Shown one piece after another: positions 1 to 8,019 of a stretch of 9,286 bases of DNA. The DNA lies in the NCBI GenBank assembly GCA_002715545.1, contig PAZI01000027.1, positions 109,099 through 118,384 of the forward strand, read 5' to 3'. Position 1 is the stretch's first letter. Every line of letters begins with the position of its first letter. Origin of the DNA: Methanobacteriota archaeon. Its GTDB lineage: Archaea > Thermoplasmatota > Poseidoniia > Poseidoniales > SP79. Made by a program: the position numbers and the translations under genes. The notes below the pieces were generated by a model, which did no database searches, was not told where the DNA came from, and saw only the letters and a list, made by a program, of their open reading frames with translations.

Positions 1-3000
1 TGTCTTTTGACCGAACACCACAACACCATCAGTATGAGGGAATGCTGTGATTGGGTTAATGTCTACATCATAAAGTGAATCTAGATTATCTCTATTAAGC
101 TTAACCTGGGTCTCAGCTACATTGGCCATGGCGCCTCGCGTGAAGCCCGCGGGAGCGTACCATGGGTGTGCTAATTGATCGTTAAGAGCAAAGGCACCAA
201 GGACCGGAACAGAAGGCGGAACCTGGATATTCTGGCCAGTGGATGGATCACTTAAAATAACATCTGGAAAGTATGCAGCAGCAAAGCTTGAATCAAGAAC
301 TCTGTTATTGAATCTTGTCACCGTATTTGATACGCTTGCCTTTTGCGCTGAGCCTGTAACCACTGTATTTTCTGTATCGTATACAATCGCGTCCATAATA
401 TACATGGCATCGAATCGTTCTTCAACAGCGTCAATTGCTCTGTCTGTTACCAGGGATTGCCTTATACCTGGAATCGCAAGAAGTTGAATATCTACATCAC
501 TTCTTTCAGCCAAGACATCGATTGCCTTCATATAGGTTGCGGCAGTCGCGCCTTCTTTGCCACCCTGTCTTGATACATCATCAACTTCTCTCATAATAGC
601 TATATCGGATAACGCTGATTTTTCTTTATCAAAAATCTCTGTACCGTCAAAACCACCAGCAACGAAAAGATTAAACTTAAGATATCTTCTAACGGAACCT
701 AAGTCTAGGTCGGTAGTTGTATTTAAGAATCTTGATCTGCCAGAAGCCGCGAGACCGTTGGTATCAACAATACTATCGTCTACAACACCATCTCTTCTAT
801 ATTCTGCAGCAGCCCATTCGGCTGAATCAGGAATACCAGCGCTAGAAGTAAGTACCTGAATATTTTCAAGAGTAAATAAGTTGTTATTATGTGAATCAGC
901 CGCTGCTGAACCCTTTCTTGCAGTTACTAAAGCCAATGAGTCTTGATCAAAATCAGGAAAATACTTTGTCCATGATTCGGCACAACTTACGACCTTGCTA
1001 TTTTTATTTGGCTCATTATATAAATCATCAATCTCAAACTGGATACCCCAGTTTAGGGATGAAACAAGCCTCTTCTTTGGTGTTTGGCCCACCGCCAGGT
1101 TTCTTCTCATTGGAAGAGGTGGTGCGACCATCGACTTATGTGCGATATTAGTTGCGTCTAATAACGCGTTTCCAGCTGTGTCTACAATTCCAGACGGTGA
1201 ATATAACGCATCGGCATTATCAATATTAAGCTTCTGCGGCCCTCTAAACCCGAATGGTAACGCGGTTGCGTCCATCGTACCATTCTCTACAGAGTCTGCT
1301 AATTCTACTCTAACATAGCTTGAGTTATTCGCGAATTTTCCTGCGAGGGTTAACTTTTGGCTACCCGCTCGTTTATCAAAATCGTAGAATAATCTTTGAT
1401 CACCTATAATTCTTGAAATAAACCTTTCCGAATTAGGATCAAGGCTTAAGCTAGAGAATCTTTCTAGTACCACAGGCTCACGATCATTATCTGTGAAGCT
1501 TCTTATAAGAAGATCGAATGTTCCATATCTGTTTTTATCAGACTGTGATCTCCTTATATTTTCTACCGTTATCTTATATACACTATTTCCACCCGCGCCA
1601 TCATCAAGAGAGTGTAGTCTAAATAATGGTTGATTTACGCCACCAAGCTTTTGAGACACAATCGTTGGAGATACCGCAGTTCGGAATCTATCAGAAAATG
1701 ATTCCGCGTTTGCCTTTGTGGCGCTGCCCGTATTTCGGTCACCCCTTGTAGAGAGTAACATTGCGACATCAGTACCTGCCTGACCTTGCGACGTTAGGTA
1801 TGGATTACCTGTACCAGCTGGCGTAGCGTAGGTGCTAAATACGTCGTAGTGAGTATATAGATAATGACCAGTTGTCTGAATTGCAGTTGGGTCAGTATTC
1901 AATACATTCGGAAAGTAATTCGACGCTTGAGGATCAAATGATGCCGTTAAAGCGCTTGGGTTGTTTTGAGTCGACTTATGACCATTAAGAATCATAATGA
2001 ACTCTTGCTTTCCGCTTGTCGTAGTTACATTACCCAATTGTGAGCCACCATTTTCGTGACCTACCCTGTTTGGCTTTATACCAAAAGCTGCGGTTGAACC
2101 AGCATATTGAGGAACTGAATCTGCTCCACCTTCGAAGTGTGAAGGTATGGAAGCTACGGTAGATTCTATCGTTGTTGCTATTGCAGTGTTCTTAGCCGAA
2201 CCTGCGATTAGCTGACTAAGCGTAACCATTGAACCTGATGCCACAGCACGAATTGTGCCAGAGTGGCCTGTGGATGCGTTAACAGCTCTTGCGAAATCAG
2301 TCGCGGCCAAGGCGGCTTTAGCGGCAGCGTTACCGCCTGAGTTACCTCGCTTAAAATCTAAGCCGGCTTCGCTACCATCGTTAACGGCGCGGTAAGTTCG
2401 AGAAGTAGATCCGTCTGTTACTATGATAGTACGTGTAGCAGTAATTTCGTTTAGAAAATTAATTTCCGCGTGGGCAGTTGCCTTAAGACTAGATTTACCG
2501 ACTGGAGAGTTATTAGTAATTGCAGTACGAGAAGCTGCAAGCGAAGGTACCACACCAGATGGGTACATTAGCACACCGCGCAAGACGTTTGCATATCTAA
2601 TACCATCAGTAGTAGCGACGCCCGTACCGGCTTCAGAGAATATTCTTTCACCGACTCCGCCCGTAAATGCAGATACAATCGTTAAGTTACCAATAGATGC
2701 ATGCGATAATGTAATCGGCCTGTTACCAGCTCGTCCTGGCGAGTCCTGAGTTATCACCGCGTATTGAGCTTCAGCGGCGGCTGACGATGCGGCGTCTCCA
2801 TCAGCGTCGTAAATTGAAACTGAAAGTTTTCCTGCATGACCGTCGGTGTCTTCGATCGACTCCTTTAATTTAGTCAAGAATGTATATTGGTTATCCTGGC
2901 CGGCGTCGGCAGTTAAGTCTAAGCTAACGGAAATGCCATCCACGACGCCAGCGGCGCCGGCGGTTGATCCGTTTCCTAGCGCGTCATTGGCTACAAGCTT

Positions 3001-4692
3001 TTTATGATTAGCAACACCACCGTTACCAGAATCTACGATCACATATGTTCTAGATGTTCCATCAGCGGAAGTGACTTTAATTGTTCTTCCTGCTTCCACC
3101 GCAGAATTGGCATTACCGGCAGCCACCGTAATTCTTGCAGAAGCCTTAGAGGGCGCAGACTCTTTCATCAAAACACTCAAAAAGTGTGTTCTGCCTTCCA
3201 TACCATTACCATCGCGGCCACCAGTAAAGTCATTTACTGTCGCTGCTTCATCAATGCGAAGTCCGCCAAGAGTTACAGCTTGTGGTAAGCCTGTATTCAA
3301 GACTGTTGTATTACCTGCTGTCCCACCTGCTTTTTGCGTTAATGTTAATGTCTGAGCGCCGTCCATTGGGCCTTCAGCTGAGCCGTGACCCTCTGTACCA
3401 ACGCCGGTGGCAGTAAAAGTAGCGCCGACTGTGGCATTCTCAGGACCCCCGAAACCAGACCAATTAGCTTCCAGAACTTCCGTTATCTTATATACTTGAC
3501 TGGCGACGAATGCCCCAGCAGCGACAGTGCTTTGGACTCCAGCAATTTCGCCATCATGTCCGGTTGAGGATTCCATGGCAGTCTCTAATTCTTTTAAGAA
3601 TGTATGCGCCGCAGATACAGAGCCACCTGTTGTATTAATATTTACTGCGACGGTGCCTACTTGAGCGGCCTCAGCCAAACCAGAACCGGTTCTATCATGA
3701 AGCGCCAAGACTGTTCCTGTCGCCACAGCTGAGCCACCACCCACAAAATTTCCACTAAACGATGAGCCAGCCGCCAAAGTCGCCGTAATCGCTTTGTTGC
3801 CAGCAGCAGTTGTGGGTTTTTGTGTGAACACAATATTACCAGCATTATTATTATCGCCAGCATTATTATGGGTCATTTCGATTTTGTCATCGGCCGATCC
3901 TGCGTTGTTACCCGCGGCGTGATTAATTGCTACAATGAGCTGAGCATAGTCTGCGTCACCGTTTGCGCCTCTTCTTACAACGACTTTGCCATCAACCACT
4001 TGGCCGGTACTACCTTCGTCTTTAAAGATATAGGTTTTTGTAATATTATCGTGGGTAATGAGCGTGATTACATTATCAGCAACTGGTCGGGCAGTATACG
4101 TTAAGGTCGCTGTTGCTTTCTGCGCAGCATGGCCACCGTCGACGACGCTGTAGGTCTTTGTTACGCCACCTGCATCTGTCAGTGTTATTGTATCATCTTC
4201 TGCTATGCCGTGATTAGTGGCATCACCATCAGTAACACCTAGGACGATTGTTGCCTTAGCACCAGCTGCCTCAGCACCTGCGTAAGGATTTGCAGCCACC
4301 CTGCCCGTATCTGGATTAACAATTTCAGAACCAACTACGAAACCAGCATTTTTTACTGCACCAGCGGCGATATCATTACCGCGAGAGTCTTTACCGGCTT
4401 CACCTATTCGAGCCTTACCGTCACCAACACCTAGGACCTTAAGGTAAAGACCGGCCCTCGCATTTGAAAACCATTCCCTTAAAGCCATTGGGCCGAATTT
4501 ATCTGGACCCACAGCACCAAACTCAGCTACGAATTCTGAGAGGTTTGCGAATACCAGAGGAACAAAGGCACGACCCTTAGCGGATGTACCAATGACGCCA
4601 GCCGGCGTTCCAACCGGGCCAACTCTAGAGGGACCAGAAAGATCAATCTCTCGAGTGCTTACACCTGGACTTTTAAATGTCAGTTCTGCCAT
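1..4692 (-). CDS. giant tail sheath protein B with inserted repeat modules, 3'-partial
   Basis: An open frame of 1564 codons runs from ATG 4692 to the left edge without a stop. The last visible residues are FGQKT, equal to residue 988 of sheath A, so about 112 residues should be missing and the full protein would be near 1676. The N-terminus (MAELTFKSPG, REIDL, GVIGTSAKGRAFVPL at 33-47) and later landmarks match A: VLRGVLMYPSG (703-713), LDPNSERF (1084-1091), LPFGFRG (1145-1151), GGFDG (1344-1348), IPGIRQS (1405-1411), AAYFPDVIL, WYAPAGFTRGA and DVDINPITAFP. This is the contractile sheath fold. Between the N-terminal domain and the middle it carries three insertions (about 140-493, 516-681 and 733-870) made of divergent copies of one Gly/Ala/Thr-rich, probably beta-rich repeat. 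These should loop out of the protruding domain to the sheath surface. It could be the main sheath subunit, a minor or decorated subunit mixed with A, or a paralog with a separate role; the sequence does not decide. Confidence 0.92.
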   Translation of the reverse strand, partial: MAELTFKSPGVSTREIDLSGPSRVGPVGTPAGVIGTSAKGRAFVPLVFANLSEFVAEFGAVGPDKFGPMALREWFSNARAGLYLKVLGVGDGKARIGEAGKDSRGNDIAAGAVKNAGFVVGSEIVNPDTGRVAANPYAGAEAAGAKATIVLGVTDGDATNHGIAEDDTITLTDAGGVTKTYSVVDGGHAAQKATATLTYTARPVADNVITLITHDNITKTYIFKDEGSTGQVVDGKVVVRRGANGDADYAQLIVAINHAAGNNAGSADDKIEMTHNNAGDNNNAGNIVFTQKPTTAAGNKAITATLAAGSSFSGNFVGGGSAVATGTVLALHDRTGSGLAEAAQVGTVAVNINTTGGSVSAAHTFLKELETAMESSTGHDGEIAGVQSTVAAGAFVASQVYKITEVLEANWSGFGGPENATVGATFTATGVGTEGHGSAEGPMDGAQTLTLTQKAGGTAGNTTVLNTGLPQAVTLGGLRIDEAATVNDFTGGRDGNGMEGRTHFLSVLMKESAPSKASARITVAAGNANSAVEAGRTIKVTSADGTSRTYVIVDSGNGGVANHKKLVANDALGNGSTAGAAGVVDGISVSLDLTADAGQDNQYTFLTKLKESIEDTDGHAGKLSVSIYDADGDAASSAAAEAQYAVITQDSPGRAGNRPITLSHASIGNLTIVSAFTGGVGERIFSEAGTGVATTDGIRYANVLRGVLMYPSGVVPSLAASRTAITNNSPVGKSSLKATAHAEINFLNEITATRTIIVTDGSTSRTYRAVNDGSEAGLDFKRGNSGGNAAAKAALAATDFARAVNASTGHSGTIRAVASGSMVTLSQLIAGSAKNTAIATTIESTVASIPSHFEGGADSVPQYAGSTAAFGIKPNRVGHENGGSQLGNVTTTSGKQEFIMILNGHKSTQNNPSALTASFDPQASNYFPNVLNTDPTAIQTTGHYLYTHYDVFSTYATPAGTGNPYLTSQGQAGTDVAMLLSTRGDRNTGSATKANAESFSDRFRTAVSPTIVSQKLGGVNQPLFRLHSLDDGAGGNSVYKITVENIRRSQSDKNRYGTFDLLIRSFTDNDREPVVLERFSSLSLDPNSERFISRIIGDQRLFYDFDKRAGSQKLTLAGKFANNSSYVRVELADSVENGTMDATALPFGFRGPQKLNIDNADALYSPSGIVDTAGNALLDATNIAHKSMVAPPLPMRRNLAVGQTPKKRLVSSLNWGIQFEIDDLYNEPNKNSKVVSCAESWTKYFPDFDQDSLALVTARKGSAAADSHNNNLFTLENIQVLTSSAGIPDSAEWAAAEYRRDGVVDDSIVDTNGLAASGRSRFLNTTTDLDLGSVRRYLKFNLFVAGGFDGTEIFDKEKSALSDIAIMREVDDVSRQGGKEGATAATYMKAIDVLAERSDVDIQLLAIPGIRQSLVTDRAIDAVEERFDAMYIMDAIVYDTENTVVTGSAQKASVSNTVTRFNNRVLDSSFAAAYFPDVILSDPSTGQNIQVPPSVPVLGAFALNDQLAHPWYAPAGFTRGAMANVAETQVKLNRDNLDSLYDVDINPITAFPHTDGVVVFGQKT
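2125..2481 (-). repeat. sheath B repeat module copy 5
   Basis: Residues 738-856. All four signatures are present: TIIVTDGSTSRTY (755-767), FARAVNASTGHSGTI (800-814), LSQLIAGSAKNTAI (825-838) and FEGG (853-856). It lies beyond the LRGVLMYPSG landmark, in a loop where sheath A has only a short connection, so it marks a third insertion site. Confidence 0.7.
2656..3144 (-). repeat. sheath B repeat module copy 4
   Basis: Residues 517-679. All four signatures are present: TIKVTSADGTSRTY (537-550), FLTKLKESIEDTDGHAGKL (605-623), ITQDSPGRAGNRPIT (647-661) and FTGG (676-679). It is separated from copies 1-3 by about 24 residues of apparent sheath sequence (MEGRTHFLSVLMKES), so it is an independent insertion site. 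Confidence 0.7.
3217..3735 (-). repeat. sheath B repeat module copy 3, interrupted by a nested module
   Basis: Residues 320-492. The TKTY signature is lost or very diverged, but FLKELETAMESSTGHDGEI (365-383), LTQKAGGTAGNTTV (451-464) and the closing FTGG (489-492) are clear. About 50 residues of a different module (389-439) separate the GH-x-G part from the TQ part, which makes this copy longer than the others. Confidence 0.65.
3376..3528 (-). repeat. nested YKIT...GATFTATGVGT module inside repeat copy 3
   Basis: Residues 389-439 read AAGAFVASQVYKIT, then a Trp/Gly-rich middle, then TVGATFTATGVGTEGHGSA. From memory this resembles a short repeat common in marine phage structural proteins, of the form G-x-x-Y-x-I...T-x-GA...VG-x-x-FTATG-x-G-x-G. 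That family is distinct from the surrounding repeat. Its function is unknown; it may be a small beta structure. Confidence 0.5.
3736..4119 (-). repeat. sheath B repeat module copy 2
   Basis: Residues 192-319. First signature VITLITHDNITKTY (208-221), a helix-like YAQLIVAINHAAG (249-261), then FTQKPTTAAGNKAIT (289-303) and the closing FVGG (316-319). Between the helix and the TQ signature there is an Asn/Ala/Gly-rich stretch (about 274-286) absent from the other copies. Confidence 0.65.
4138..4200 (-). repeat. sheath B repeat module copy 1 (short, partial)
   Basis: Residues 165-185 of sheath B hold only the first signature of the repeat family, TITLTDAGGVTKTY (168-181), followed by SVVDGG. 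The GH-x-G, TQ and FxGG signatures seen in other copies are absent before copy 2 begins, so this is a truncated unit. Confidence 0.55.
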
Positions 4693-4716: not shown

Positions 4717-7700
4717 TTATTCAAAAGAAACTCCACTATTAGTTATCACGAAGTCAATCGCGATGAACTCGATTGCCCTGGTCGGTACAACGACTATACG
4801 ACCGTTCAATCTATTATTCTCAACATCTTGAGGACTATTATTCGAATCATCCATCACAACTCTAAAGCTATCAATACCAGCCTGCGCTTGAACAGTTGCA
4901 AGCAATGGAGTTACCAAATTAATAAATCTTGCTCTCGTTTCAGCGTTATTTGGTTCGAATAATAATCTTTGTGCAATGCCTGTAATCAAACGCTTAATTT
5001 CTAGTAGTAATCTTCTTACATTTACTCTGTCTAGTGCGCTCTTAGCCATTTGCAAAGTTTTTTGTCCAAAAATCACAAACCCACCATCAGGGAAGTTTGC
5101 AATTGGATTAATTCTAGCATCATATAATTCATCTCTATCGCCGGCTGTTAGCCTAACGTCTACATTCGTTACGTTATCCAGAGCACCGCGATTAAAACCA
5201 GCGGGTGCGAACCAAGGAAAAGATACCGAATCGCTGAACGCGAGGGCCTTCATTGCAGCAACAGATGCAGGTACCTTGACCTGCGTTGAATTGGCCGCAT
5301 CTGCCAATATAATATCTGGAAAATATGCGGCTGAATAATTGTTATCAATCACTCTAGAAGATAATTGTTCTGATGTCTCTCTTACATCCGGGACAGACTT
5401 TCGCAATTTAGTAAATGCTGTTCTATCCTCTGTTCCGAATAAGCGAGTTCCATTCTCGGAGTAAGCAGGCACATCCATAAGGTATAATGCCAACGAATAC
5501 TCTTTAACCTTATCAGAAGCAAAATCAGCCACAAAGGAATCCCTTATACCTGGCACTGCAAGAATATTATGACGAACAGTCATTGGGTCGGTCATAATCG
5601 AAACAGCTTGACGATATGAAATCACCGTGCTATTGTTTTTGCCTGTTCCTGGAGCGCCTGTATTTAACCCAGTGTTTGTTGTAAAAGCTGCGTTAAATTC
5701 AGTTGATGCCTTTCCTTCAAACCCAAGTGGGGCGTCAGATGATGTACTTCTATCATTCATAAGTGACATATCCTTGTCTAGAGGATTTAAACCATCAAAT
5801 CCGCCGTACATAGGAAGTGTGAACTTGTTATAAGCAACAAACCTATTAAACTTAACAGATGAACTGTTTAATAGGGTCGCCATTGTTATTCTATCGCCGT
5901 ATGAACCATCAGTTACACGATAGTCACTAGGATCAACAGCTGCACTTCTCATATATACAGCTTCTAGCATGTGCTCTTTAGCAGATCCTGTTACGTATTC
6001 GGCGATTTTTGCTGCAGATGAACCAACTTTATTTAAAGCCACCCTTGCAAGAGTAAACTTATTTGAGTTGTATACATCGACAGCTGAACCTGTGAGTAAT
6101 GCTCCTGTCTTCGCAATACCCTGGAACTTTGTGTATCCTTCAATTAATGTGTTAAACTGCGCTCCTGCGTTTGGGTTTCTTGCCGCATTAGCAATTGATG
6201 CAGTCCTTGGTAAGCGTGCTGATTTCATACCCCAATATAATTTAGCATCAACCTTTTCTGTTAGTGCAGGATTACCGGATGGATCCGAACCGCCGACGTC
6301 TGCAGCAGCAGGCATTAGCCCACGAGTCAACTTATATCGTAGTGGGAATGGCGGAAAAATTGGAGAGTTTAGTGTCGCACTAGCTCTATCATCATGATCA
6401 ATAAGAGTTGCCGTATGGATTCTACAGATATCGCGGTGGGCCGCGGCAGCTTGCTTTAGTCCTTCGTTACCGTCACAAATTGCTACTGTTGCGGATGCGC
6501 CTGACGCTCTATCTGCAATTACCACATTACCTAATGGACCAGAATCGTCCATAATCGTCTTGGTGGCGTCATCAGTAAGTGACTCAGATGTCTTAAGAAC
6601 TGGAATCCCTCTAAATCCAAAAGGTAATGATCCAGCAGGAACCTCTCCTCTTTCGAACTTATCGCTCATCACAACCCTTACGTGAAGCGAACGATTAGGG
6701 TATTTACCTGAAACAATCAAGCGACGCTCTTCTTCTAAGTCAGCGTCAAAATTAAACTGTGCTTTATAATCACCAATCTTTCTTGCGACAAAGTCTTCTG
6801 AGTTTGGATCAAGAGTACAACCAGGATAAGATTCTAGAATTTCAGGATCAGTATCTAAATCCTTTAATTTTCGAACCTGAACTTCGAACGTTCCGAAAGG
6901 TTGTTTTGGATCAAGAGAAGCCCTTATGTTTGCAATACTAATTTTTACATCTTTATTTCCAGCTTCGCCATCAGAAAGAGATTCGAAATGCATAATATCG
7001 AATTCTTGAGTACCGAAAGGTTGTGATATAATTGCTGGTGATCTGGACGTTGTATAACGTGCGTCCATTCTTCCCATAACAGACCATGCCCGGGCATCAT
7101 CTCCAGTAAAAGGAGATCCACCAACAGTTGATCTGGATGGTGTTGATACAAACGCTACAGTTGCAGACGCAACCTCGTCCTCTACAGGGAGGTCTAAGTG
7201 TAATAAGTGCTTTTCTTCTAAAAATTTGTGTGGATCAGTATTCAAGGCCTTAGAGATATATGAGTCATGCTCAGGATCAAGAGATGCCTTGACATTTTTA
7301 ATAACATTTTGACTTGAGTCTAGTATCAATAATCTAAATTCAGAAGATACCAAAGCTGCCTTAGAGTCAGTCTGGATGCGTGGATCGCTATCGAATGTTG
7401 CCGTTGTTGCCATACACGCGAGTCGATGACCATTAGAAGTATATACAACACCTCGTAATAGTTGGGTTGATACAGATGAATTGGTAACGCTTGAGTTATC
7501 AACAAAAATAGGGTATGACTCACGGGCTTCTTGAGACTTACCAGCAACGTTAAGATCATGAGTAGCCATGATTAGATTAACACCACCGTTAAGAAGCAAA
7601 CCGGCGACGTTGCCTGAATCACCAGCTGAACCTGCAGCGAGTGCGATGTTATCTCTGTTGGTGGTGGCCTCAACGCCATTAACTCTAAAACCAGCACCCT

Positions 7701-8019
7701 TTACAATACCTGATGTCCTTGTTGTGTCGCGATCGGCGGCAGTTATATTACCACCTGCGCCTAGAACCCTCATGAACGTTAGAGCCCTTTTGTTCTTTAA
7801 AAATTCGAACGCAGCATAAACAGCTGGAAGATCGGGGTCAAGACCACCGAACCTGTTTACGAAATCTGTGAAATCACCGACGGTGACCGGTACGAAGGCG
7901 GGACCTTTTGCTGATGTACCAATAACACCACCAGGTACTCCAGAAACTGTTTGGCGCCTCGCCGCAAGGTCAATTTCCCTTTCAAAAAATCCGGGGGATC
8001 TGAATGTTTGCTCTGCCAT
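4717..8019 (-). CDS. contractile tail sheath protein A (gp18 family), complete
   Basis: This is a tail sheath subunit of 1100 residues, much longer than T4 gp18 (659). Sheath subunits stack around the tail tube and contract to drive it through the host envelope. The N-terminus (MAEQTFRSPGF, EREIDL, then GVIGTSAKGPAFVPV at 31-45) is typical of the family and in known sheaths forms part of the inter-subunit mesh. Family-like landmarks follow: LRGVVY (188-193), LDPNSEDF (403-410), LPFGFRG (465-471) and GGFDG (739-743). The C-terminal sheath domain carries AVPGIRDS (821-828), AAYFPDIIL (897-905), FAPAGFNRGA (937-946), RDELYDARINPIANFP (962-977) and FGQKTL (984-989). The last strand, RIVVVPTRAIEFIAIDFVI, should be the C-terminal arm exchanged between neighbours. 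The start is ATG 8019 with a strong ribosome binding site. Sheath B follows after 24 bases. Compared with B, it lacks the repeat insertions but has about 45 extra residues at roughly 489-550 containing clustered Cys and His. Confidence 0.93.
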   Translation of the reverse strand: MAEQTFRSPGFFEREIDLAARRQTVSGVPGGVIGTSAKGPAFVPVTVGDFTDFVNRFGGLDPDLPAVYAAFEFLKNKRALTFMRVLGAGGNITAADRDTTRTSGIVKGAGFRVNGVEATTNRDNIALAAGSAGDSGNVAGLLLNGGVNLIMATHDLNVAGKSQEARESYPIFVDNSSVTNSSVSTQLLRGVVYTSNGHRLACMATTATFDSDPRIQTDSKAALVSSEFRLLILDSSQNVIKNVKASLDPEHDSYISKALNTDPHKFLEEKHLLHLDLPVEDEVASATVAFVSTPSRSTVGGSPFTGDDARAWSVMGRMDARYTTSRSPAIISQPFGTQEFDIMHFESLSDGEAGNKDVKISIANIRASLDPKQPFGTFEVQVRKLKDLDTDPEILESYPGCTLDPNSEDFVARKIGDYKAQFNFDADLEEERRLIVSGKYPNRSLHVRVVMSDKFERGEVPAGSLPFGFRGIPVLKTSESLTDDATKTIMDDSGPLGNVVIADRASGASATVAICDGNEGLKQAAAAHRDICRIHTATLIDHDDRASATLNSPIFPPFPLRYKLTRGLMPAAADVGGSDPSGNPALTEKVDAKLYWGMKSARLPRTASIANAARNPNAGAQFNTLIEGYTKFQGIAKTGALLTGSAVDVYNSNKFTLARVALNKVGSSAAKIAEYVTGSAKEHMLEAVYMRSAAVDPSDYRVTDGSYGDRITMATLLNSSSVKFNRFVAYNKFTLPMYGGFDGLNPLDKDMSLMNDRSTSSDAPLGFEGKASTEFNAAFTTNTGLNTGAPGTGKNNSTVISYRQAVSIMTDPMTVRHNILAVPGIRDSFVADFASDKVKEYSLALYLMDVPAYSENGTRLFGTEDRTAFTKLRKSVPDVRETSEQLSSRVIDNNYSAAYFPDIILADAANSTQVKVPASVAAMKALAFSDSVSFPWFAPAGFNRGALDNVTNVDVRLTAGDRDELYDARINPIANFPDGGFVIFGQKTLQMAKSALDRVNVRRLLLEIKRLITGIAQRLLFEPNNAETRARFINLVTPLLATVQAQAGIDSFRVVMDDSNNSPQDVENNRLNGRIVVVPTRAIEFIAIDFVITNSGVSFE

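Follow-up and report, generated by a model that had tools for sequence, protein, structure and literature searches.

The window analysed here, a 9,286-nucleotide stretch of contig PAZI01000027.1, is part of a 188,264-base virus record of a large phage known from environmental DNA alone. The minus strand of the window carries a frame that resembles the gp15 sheath stabiliser below threshold (E 0.017) and, downstream of it, two tail sheath genes, A and B. Sheath A (positions 4717..8019; phrog_23, E 5.1e-58) is 1100 residues long. Sheath B (1..4692; phrog_23 tail sheath, E 8.7e-24), which the window cuts to residues 1-1564 of 1675 (entire frame: L008:89-5116), contains three long insertions that hold copies of one domain module; all window features given below are likewise encoded on the minus strand. 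A and B share two regions in BLASTP: residues 1-113 of A match 1-120 of B (45% identity, E 1e-20), within the conserved N-terminal part of B (residues 1-139; 4276..4692), and residues 227-988 of A match 897-1564 of B (E 2e-85), within its conserved core (residues 880-1564; 1..2055); between these there is no significant alignment. A sequence-only reading of this DNA, made before the present analysis, had proposed that extra sequence enters B at three points, and an alignment of 89 complete relatives bears this out, placing the inserted stretches at B 141-497, 514-682 and 745-877. The insert at site 1 (B 140-497; 3202..4275) is missing in most of these relatives. The same alignment reveals a fourth site, 2b (B 695-698), which is empty in B and occupied in other relatives; which of the labels 2 and 2b an insert receives varies with the alignment. 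All inserts above 50 residues in length are confined to core columns 129-201 of 994, with small ones (20-47 residues) at a few later points. Sheath A proteins carry inserts in loci L092, L093 and L153, near the equivalent of site 3, and module matches are found only in that of L093. Guanine-plus-cytosine content at fourfold sites is 0.387, 0.405 and 0.298 in inserts 1, 2 and 3, and 0.294, 0.257 and 0.239 in the core, the N-terminus and sheath A, a contrast that we do not use as support.

A profile is required to see the repeat, since plain BLASTP of B against itself returned none. Our first profile was built from six seeds, which came from B and a further three proteins of the same phage, and was iterated over all fetched frames; the test profiles exclude this phage, but their training modules were gathered with the profile seeded from it. 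A test profile of 66 modules from other phages scores B 146-191 at 21.0 bits, 190-319 at 62.3, 515-679 at 66.1 and 737-856 at 71.8, and recognises a split copy at 340-388 (11.9 bits) and 443-492 (17.5 bits), as compared to 1.9 bits for sheath A and a maximum of 9.8 bits over 1000 B sequences whose inserts had been shuffled. With a profile restricted to 15 modules that other phages carry outside the sheath, all pieces of B were still recovered at 8.7-46.5 bits (shuffles at most 7.9 bits, sheath A -2.5). All three insertions thus contain the same module, as had been claimed, and the self-similarity among the segments of B is significant by profile.

The matches with outside profiles locate five pieces in the three inserts: three full copies, one N-terminal part and one copy that an unrelated element, about 50 residues long, divides in two, so that the earlier count of five segments holds for pieces and not for whole copies. 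Site 1 contains module 1a, the N-terminal part (B 160-190; 4123..4215; profile positions 7-37 of 122, E 4e-6), the full copy 1b (B 194-319; 3736..4113; E 1e-22), where the structural model is unreliable, and the split copy 1c (B 341-492; 3217..3672; profile positions 37-84 and 78-121, E 5e-4 and 4e-6). The second element nested in 1c (B 392-441; 3370..3519) has its own small profile, made from three copies from this phage. Full copies occupy site 2 (module 2, B 519-679; 2656..3138; E 6e-23; modelled, with a block predicted local distance difference test (pLDDT) score of 57-90) and site 3 (module 3, B 742-856; 2125..2469). Across the relatives, 21 of the 52 inserts of at least 60 residues have no module match; five of these 21, picked by eye for comparison, are linked by profile.

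The module appears from sequence and modelling to be a beta-alpha module of about 115 residues. Modules 2 and 3 are modelled with a fold of their own, and the fold of module 3 matches that of Phage_sheath_domII (PF17481); this match stems from a second structure aligner, Foldseek with the B model having given no match below E 0.001. Profile comparison with hhalign also links the module to PF17481 (score 29.0, probability 54.5), as compared to at most 11.7 for 40 column shuffles and 11.4 for the reversed profile. A second insert type scores higher (44.5, probability 92.6), and the shuffle control covers the first pair only. Pfam scans of 39 modules listed 13 families at E up to 1, neither PF17481 nor any immunoglobulin-like (Ig-like) family being among them; the curated score was not reached, and Pfam and PHROGs searches gave no usable module name. 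By these comparisons the module is a distant relative of the beta-sandwich domain native to other sheaths, and hence no alien domain simply put up with by the sheath; the sequence-only reading had spoken of a domain tolerated at surface loops. Searches of bacterial genomes and viral contigs with single modules produced no confirmed relative; such searches need near-exact words, and the one in viral contigs missed a known relative (L179, 65%), so that their outcome is not evidence of absence.

The module also occurs outside the sheath: a 39-module alignment yields 17 matches in six open frames of the 188-kb record. Sheath B accounts for six of these (in five pieces), frame T (2034 residues) for four, two of them being one split copy, frame U (1308 residues) for three, and frame V (1133 residues) and a 640-residue frame (E 7.3e-9) for one each; the weakest case is a 5187-residue frame with two weak matches (E 5.2e-5 and 0.0094; G000:C1:17474-21481). 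T matches Laminin_G_3 (E 3.2e-27), and V does so below threshold. T, U and V have no PHROG match at E up to 0.1, and tblastn of T and V against annotated phages found nothing. T, U, V and the other module-bearing frames may be virion proteins. Of the 16 T loci fetched, some of them holding part of the gene, five (L179, L180, L181, L182 and L186) show module matches in T, and of three V loci one (L176) shows them in V; T and V thus occur module-free too. The nested element (about 50 residues, YxI...G..FTAT...G) sits in different loops of the B and T copies and is also found in T (1094-1148) and U (463-510) of L009 and twice in T of L180 (780-831 and 1241-1293), with no match in annotated phages. 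Its presence in module 1 of L180 was considered as an insertion absent from L009 and rejected, the alignment showing another module type there.

Modules of different sites and proteins are mixed. When site and protein are mapped as labels onto a tree of 70 modules, 29 changes are required, as compared to a least possible 7 and a shuffled mean of 45.6: the labels cluster on this tree, yet separate poorly. The changes forced by well supported branches number at least five for site 3, four for site 2, five for site 1, three for site 2b, six for T and four for U, and 26 of 73 modules have their best match at a different site or in a different protein. The strongest such case is a sheath module of P0011, which matches a T module of L179 at 63% over 115 columns and modules of its own site at 36% at best. 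Module 1b has two equally near matches (46% each), a site-2 module of L012 and, in its own phage, the first module of T; the V module is marginally nearer to site 3 of its own sheath (47%) than to a V relative (46%). The module tree has few columns for its number of rows; both module trees omit matches shorter than 85 profile positions, the careful tree also omits four long-branch modules, and the modules of L043, L108 and L121, being unlabelled, were left out.

We then consider gain and loss among relatives, which were drawn from metagenomic collections by a protein search that scored the 7993 candidates sharing most words. A tree of core columns was built for 99 complete or nearly complete sheath-B relatives; P0008, with its cut N-terminus, was excluded from it and from the careful module tree. 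An insert is present at some site in 42 of the 99. The remaining 57 have none and align over the rest of the protein, which supports the earlier view that the inserts, absent from sheath A, are not core. Insert states require at least 16 changes on the core tree, 14 of them forced by well supported branches, with minima of 5, 2, 10 and 4 for sites 1, 2, 2b and 3, respectively. The rows with sites 1, 2 and 3 all filled form one side of a single branch (14 rows, 12 distinct, support 100), so three-site occupancy probably had a single origin, with contents changing afterwards. Repeated invasion, as originally proposed for one protein, is therefore a better description of the wider family than of B by itself.

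Defined spots vary among close relatives while the core stays about 90% identical. Of the 84 pairs above 75% core identity, 44 show a difference exceeding 40 residues at some site (the truncated P0008 is a member of nine of these pairs, and there are near-duplicates among them). The clearest replacement is seen in P0002 and P0003, which are 95% identical in the N-terminus, 95% at site 2, 94% at site 3 and 90% in the C-terminal part, and at site 1 only 37% identical over half the length (165 versus 324 residues). The clearest presence/absence case is that of L106 and L147, 90% identical in the core, of which only one has the site-3 module. Compared in 150-column windows, their DNA is 78-96% identical upstream of B and 85-99% identical over the later part of B, and identity falls to 65-83% across about 1.7 kb around the module. 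As the flanks diverge too, this suggests a recombination tract rather than precise insertion. The tandem B genes of L119 (84% core identity) likewise differ by one insert present in one only. Presence/absence and cassette replacement in close relatives agree with the idea of a mobile or recombining domain, and the sequences point to homologous recombination as the probable agent. L027/L037, L075/L070 and the L119 tandem genes are more diverged throughout, with no clear tract, and fast local change may be an alternative source of site differences. A picture of constant exchange is countered by module 3 of B, which is nearest to site 3 of its relatives (68%).

As for the sheath itself, full-length sheath B (P0001) contains PF17482, and its conserved C-terminal domain, sheath family matches, sheath fold and tail-gene neighbourhood are those of a gp18-type contractile tail sheath. 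Downstream, outside the window, lie a tail tube gene (phrog_4542, E 2.2e-33; PF06841, E 8.8e-5, below the cut-off) and a baseplate-hub gene (phrog_150). The order A-B is kept in 93 of 98 fetched loci with at least two sheath frames, several of which share one contig; L068 and L115 have three sheath frames each, and L119 has three plus a fourth, cut frame. The sheath B protein occurs on 15 contigs, the longest of 250,389 bases, and the 188-kb record is thus probably an incomplete genome. The model of B places strands 502-511 and 699-709 on either side of site 2, and strands 715-718 and 886-888 on either side of site 3. With hhalign, residues 459-651 of gp18 of phage AV118 align with core columns 798-990 (P 1e-23), and its N-terminus aligns weakly with B (P 0.15) and with A (P 0.013; a single gp18 sequence was used). 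Because just the ends of B were placed, it is by chain order only that the insert sites would correspond to the exposed domains I and II of gp18. By analogy, the modules probably face outwards on the tail: in Mu, the outward-facing sheath domain is the structurally divergent one (PMC11915804). Of the earlier suggestion that the inserts fold separately at surface loops, the first half agrees with the models of modules 2 and 3, and exposure is a matter of this analogy.

The explanation that we favour, with a probability of roughly 0.6 as a whole, is that sheath B is a gp18-type contractile-tail sheath in which the segment between the N-terminal part and the core, equivalent to the exposed gp18 domains I and II, has turned into a docking area for extra domains. 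Four spots would take copies of a module related to the single beta-sandwich domain common in other sheaths. Cassettes would be added, removed or replaced by recombination that is anchored in the conserved gene ends and takes place between phages, perhaps also between genes within one genome; the contraction core would stay intact, and the same module pool would supply other proteins of the phage. The likeliest role would be a weakly adhesive, diversified outer tail surface that may hold the virion at the host envelope; adhesion and shielding, both suggested by the sequence-only reading, are hypotheses. A bolder version, which we regard as doubtful, is that the sheath and four or five other proteins, and with them the whole phage surface, share a single pool of interchangeable modules, some with the second element nested inside. 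These cassettes would recombine among sites, genes and phages, and cassette-type variation would then extend across the entire tail surface, beyond the fibre tips.

Two alternatives differ from the weakly adhesive surface in the role assigned to the modules. They could cement or shield the tail, binding neighbouring subunits, the baseplate or folded fibres and stabilising the virion with no host contact. Extra sheath domains have been proposed to stabilise the virion, among other roles, and domain I of gp18 has the baseplate and the retracted fibres as binding partners (PMC9230969, PMC3004832), but parts with a fixed partner would hardly be expected to be missing from 57 of 99 relatives and to vary in number and content among close ones, and we consider this unlikely. 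Somewhat less likely again is that the modules have little or no function, with tolerant loops gathering near-harmless domains by chance recombination: while gain and loss are indeed frequent and some copies are truncated or split, the reading frame of B is uninterrupted over about 1,000 bases of inserted sequence, and all three sites stay filled in the 14-row group as contents change, suggesting that occupancy is retained.

Two further alternatives concern the origin of the inserts, and both seem very improbable. The second element nested in several module copies might hint at a dedicated element (a diversity-generating retroelement, intein or transposon-like element) that inserts or rewrites modules; yet a search aimed at the reverse transcriptase gene (PF00078) found none in the 188-kb record, which is possibly a fragment (the control was positive in 3 of 14 genomes), and the differing flanks of the L106/L147 module are unlike precise insertion. 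Least probable of all is that the inserts are ordinary sheath core parts lost in A and most relatives. The three-insert state is common to the whole group around B, but the sequence data speak against such loss, given the insert-free relatives that align elsewhere and the L119 tandem genes that differ by one insert.

Host-recognition variation is usually sought in tail fibres; here, the variation lies at defined spots of a motor protein. Should the modules bind hosts, numerous weak contacts along its tail could be important to a phage in dilute water. The role of extra sheath domains is left as a hypothesis in a paper on sheath evolution (PMC9230969), and the natural pairs with and without a module (L106/L147 and the L119 tandem genes) are material for addressing it.

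One of the nearest likenesses among known systems is to the Mu-type sheath domain II (PF17481; Mu gpL 99-203) and its counterparts in A-1(L), PhiTE, Bas63 and Milano, which resemble the module as beta-sandwiches. These solved sheaths, however, match over one stretch each, whereas B has five pieces at three sites, variable among relatives, common to other proteins and too distant for Pfam. Promiscuous Ig-like domains were reportedly described by Fraser and colleagues in 2006, as quoted in PMC9230969 and PMC5259590, as being swapped horizontally among phage structural proteins, with weak cell-surface sugar binding proposed for them; they are accessory and horizontally exchanged, like the modules here, but no Pfam Ig-like family matches the modules. 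The variable outer domains of flagellin and FliD (Z at most 8) belong to a different machine and may have only a common arrangement. In crAss-like phages, tandem arrays of BACON domains occur in tail-associated proteins, in two lineages spread by transfer of separate domains (PMC6949934); they too are beta-sandwich repeats, but they differ in the domain and in residing in tail-fibre-associated, non-sheath proteins. Papers on phages 7-7-1 and CBB offered no decisive comparison; for the tail whiskers of CBB, the gene is not assigned in the available part of the source. Type 3 multi-domain sheaths of large phages have, like B, extra beta-sandwich domains away from the tube; such domains are commoner in large phages, adhesion or stability has been suggested for them, and the available text mentions neither a repeated one-family module nor its exchange among sites or proteins, nor any replacement in close relatives (PMC9230969). 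A literature search, weak on subscription journals, found no sheath in which modules of one recombining pool, used by other proteins of the phage too, fill several sites. While the gain of beta-sandwich domains away from the tube and the existence of phages with two sheath copies are already published (PMC9230969), what appears to be new here is a sheath filled at multiple sites from one recombining module pool that would feed other phage proteins too.
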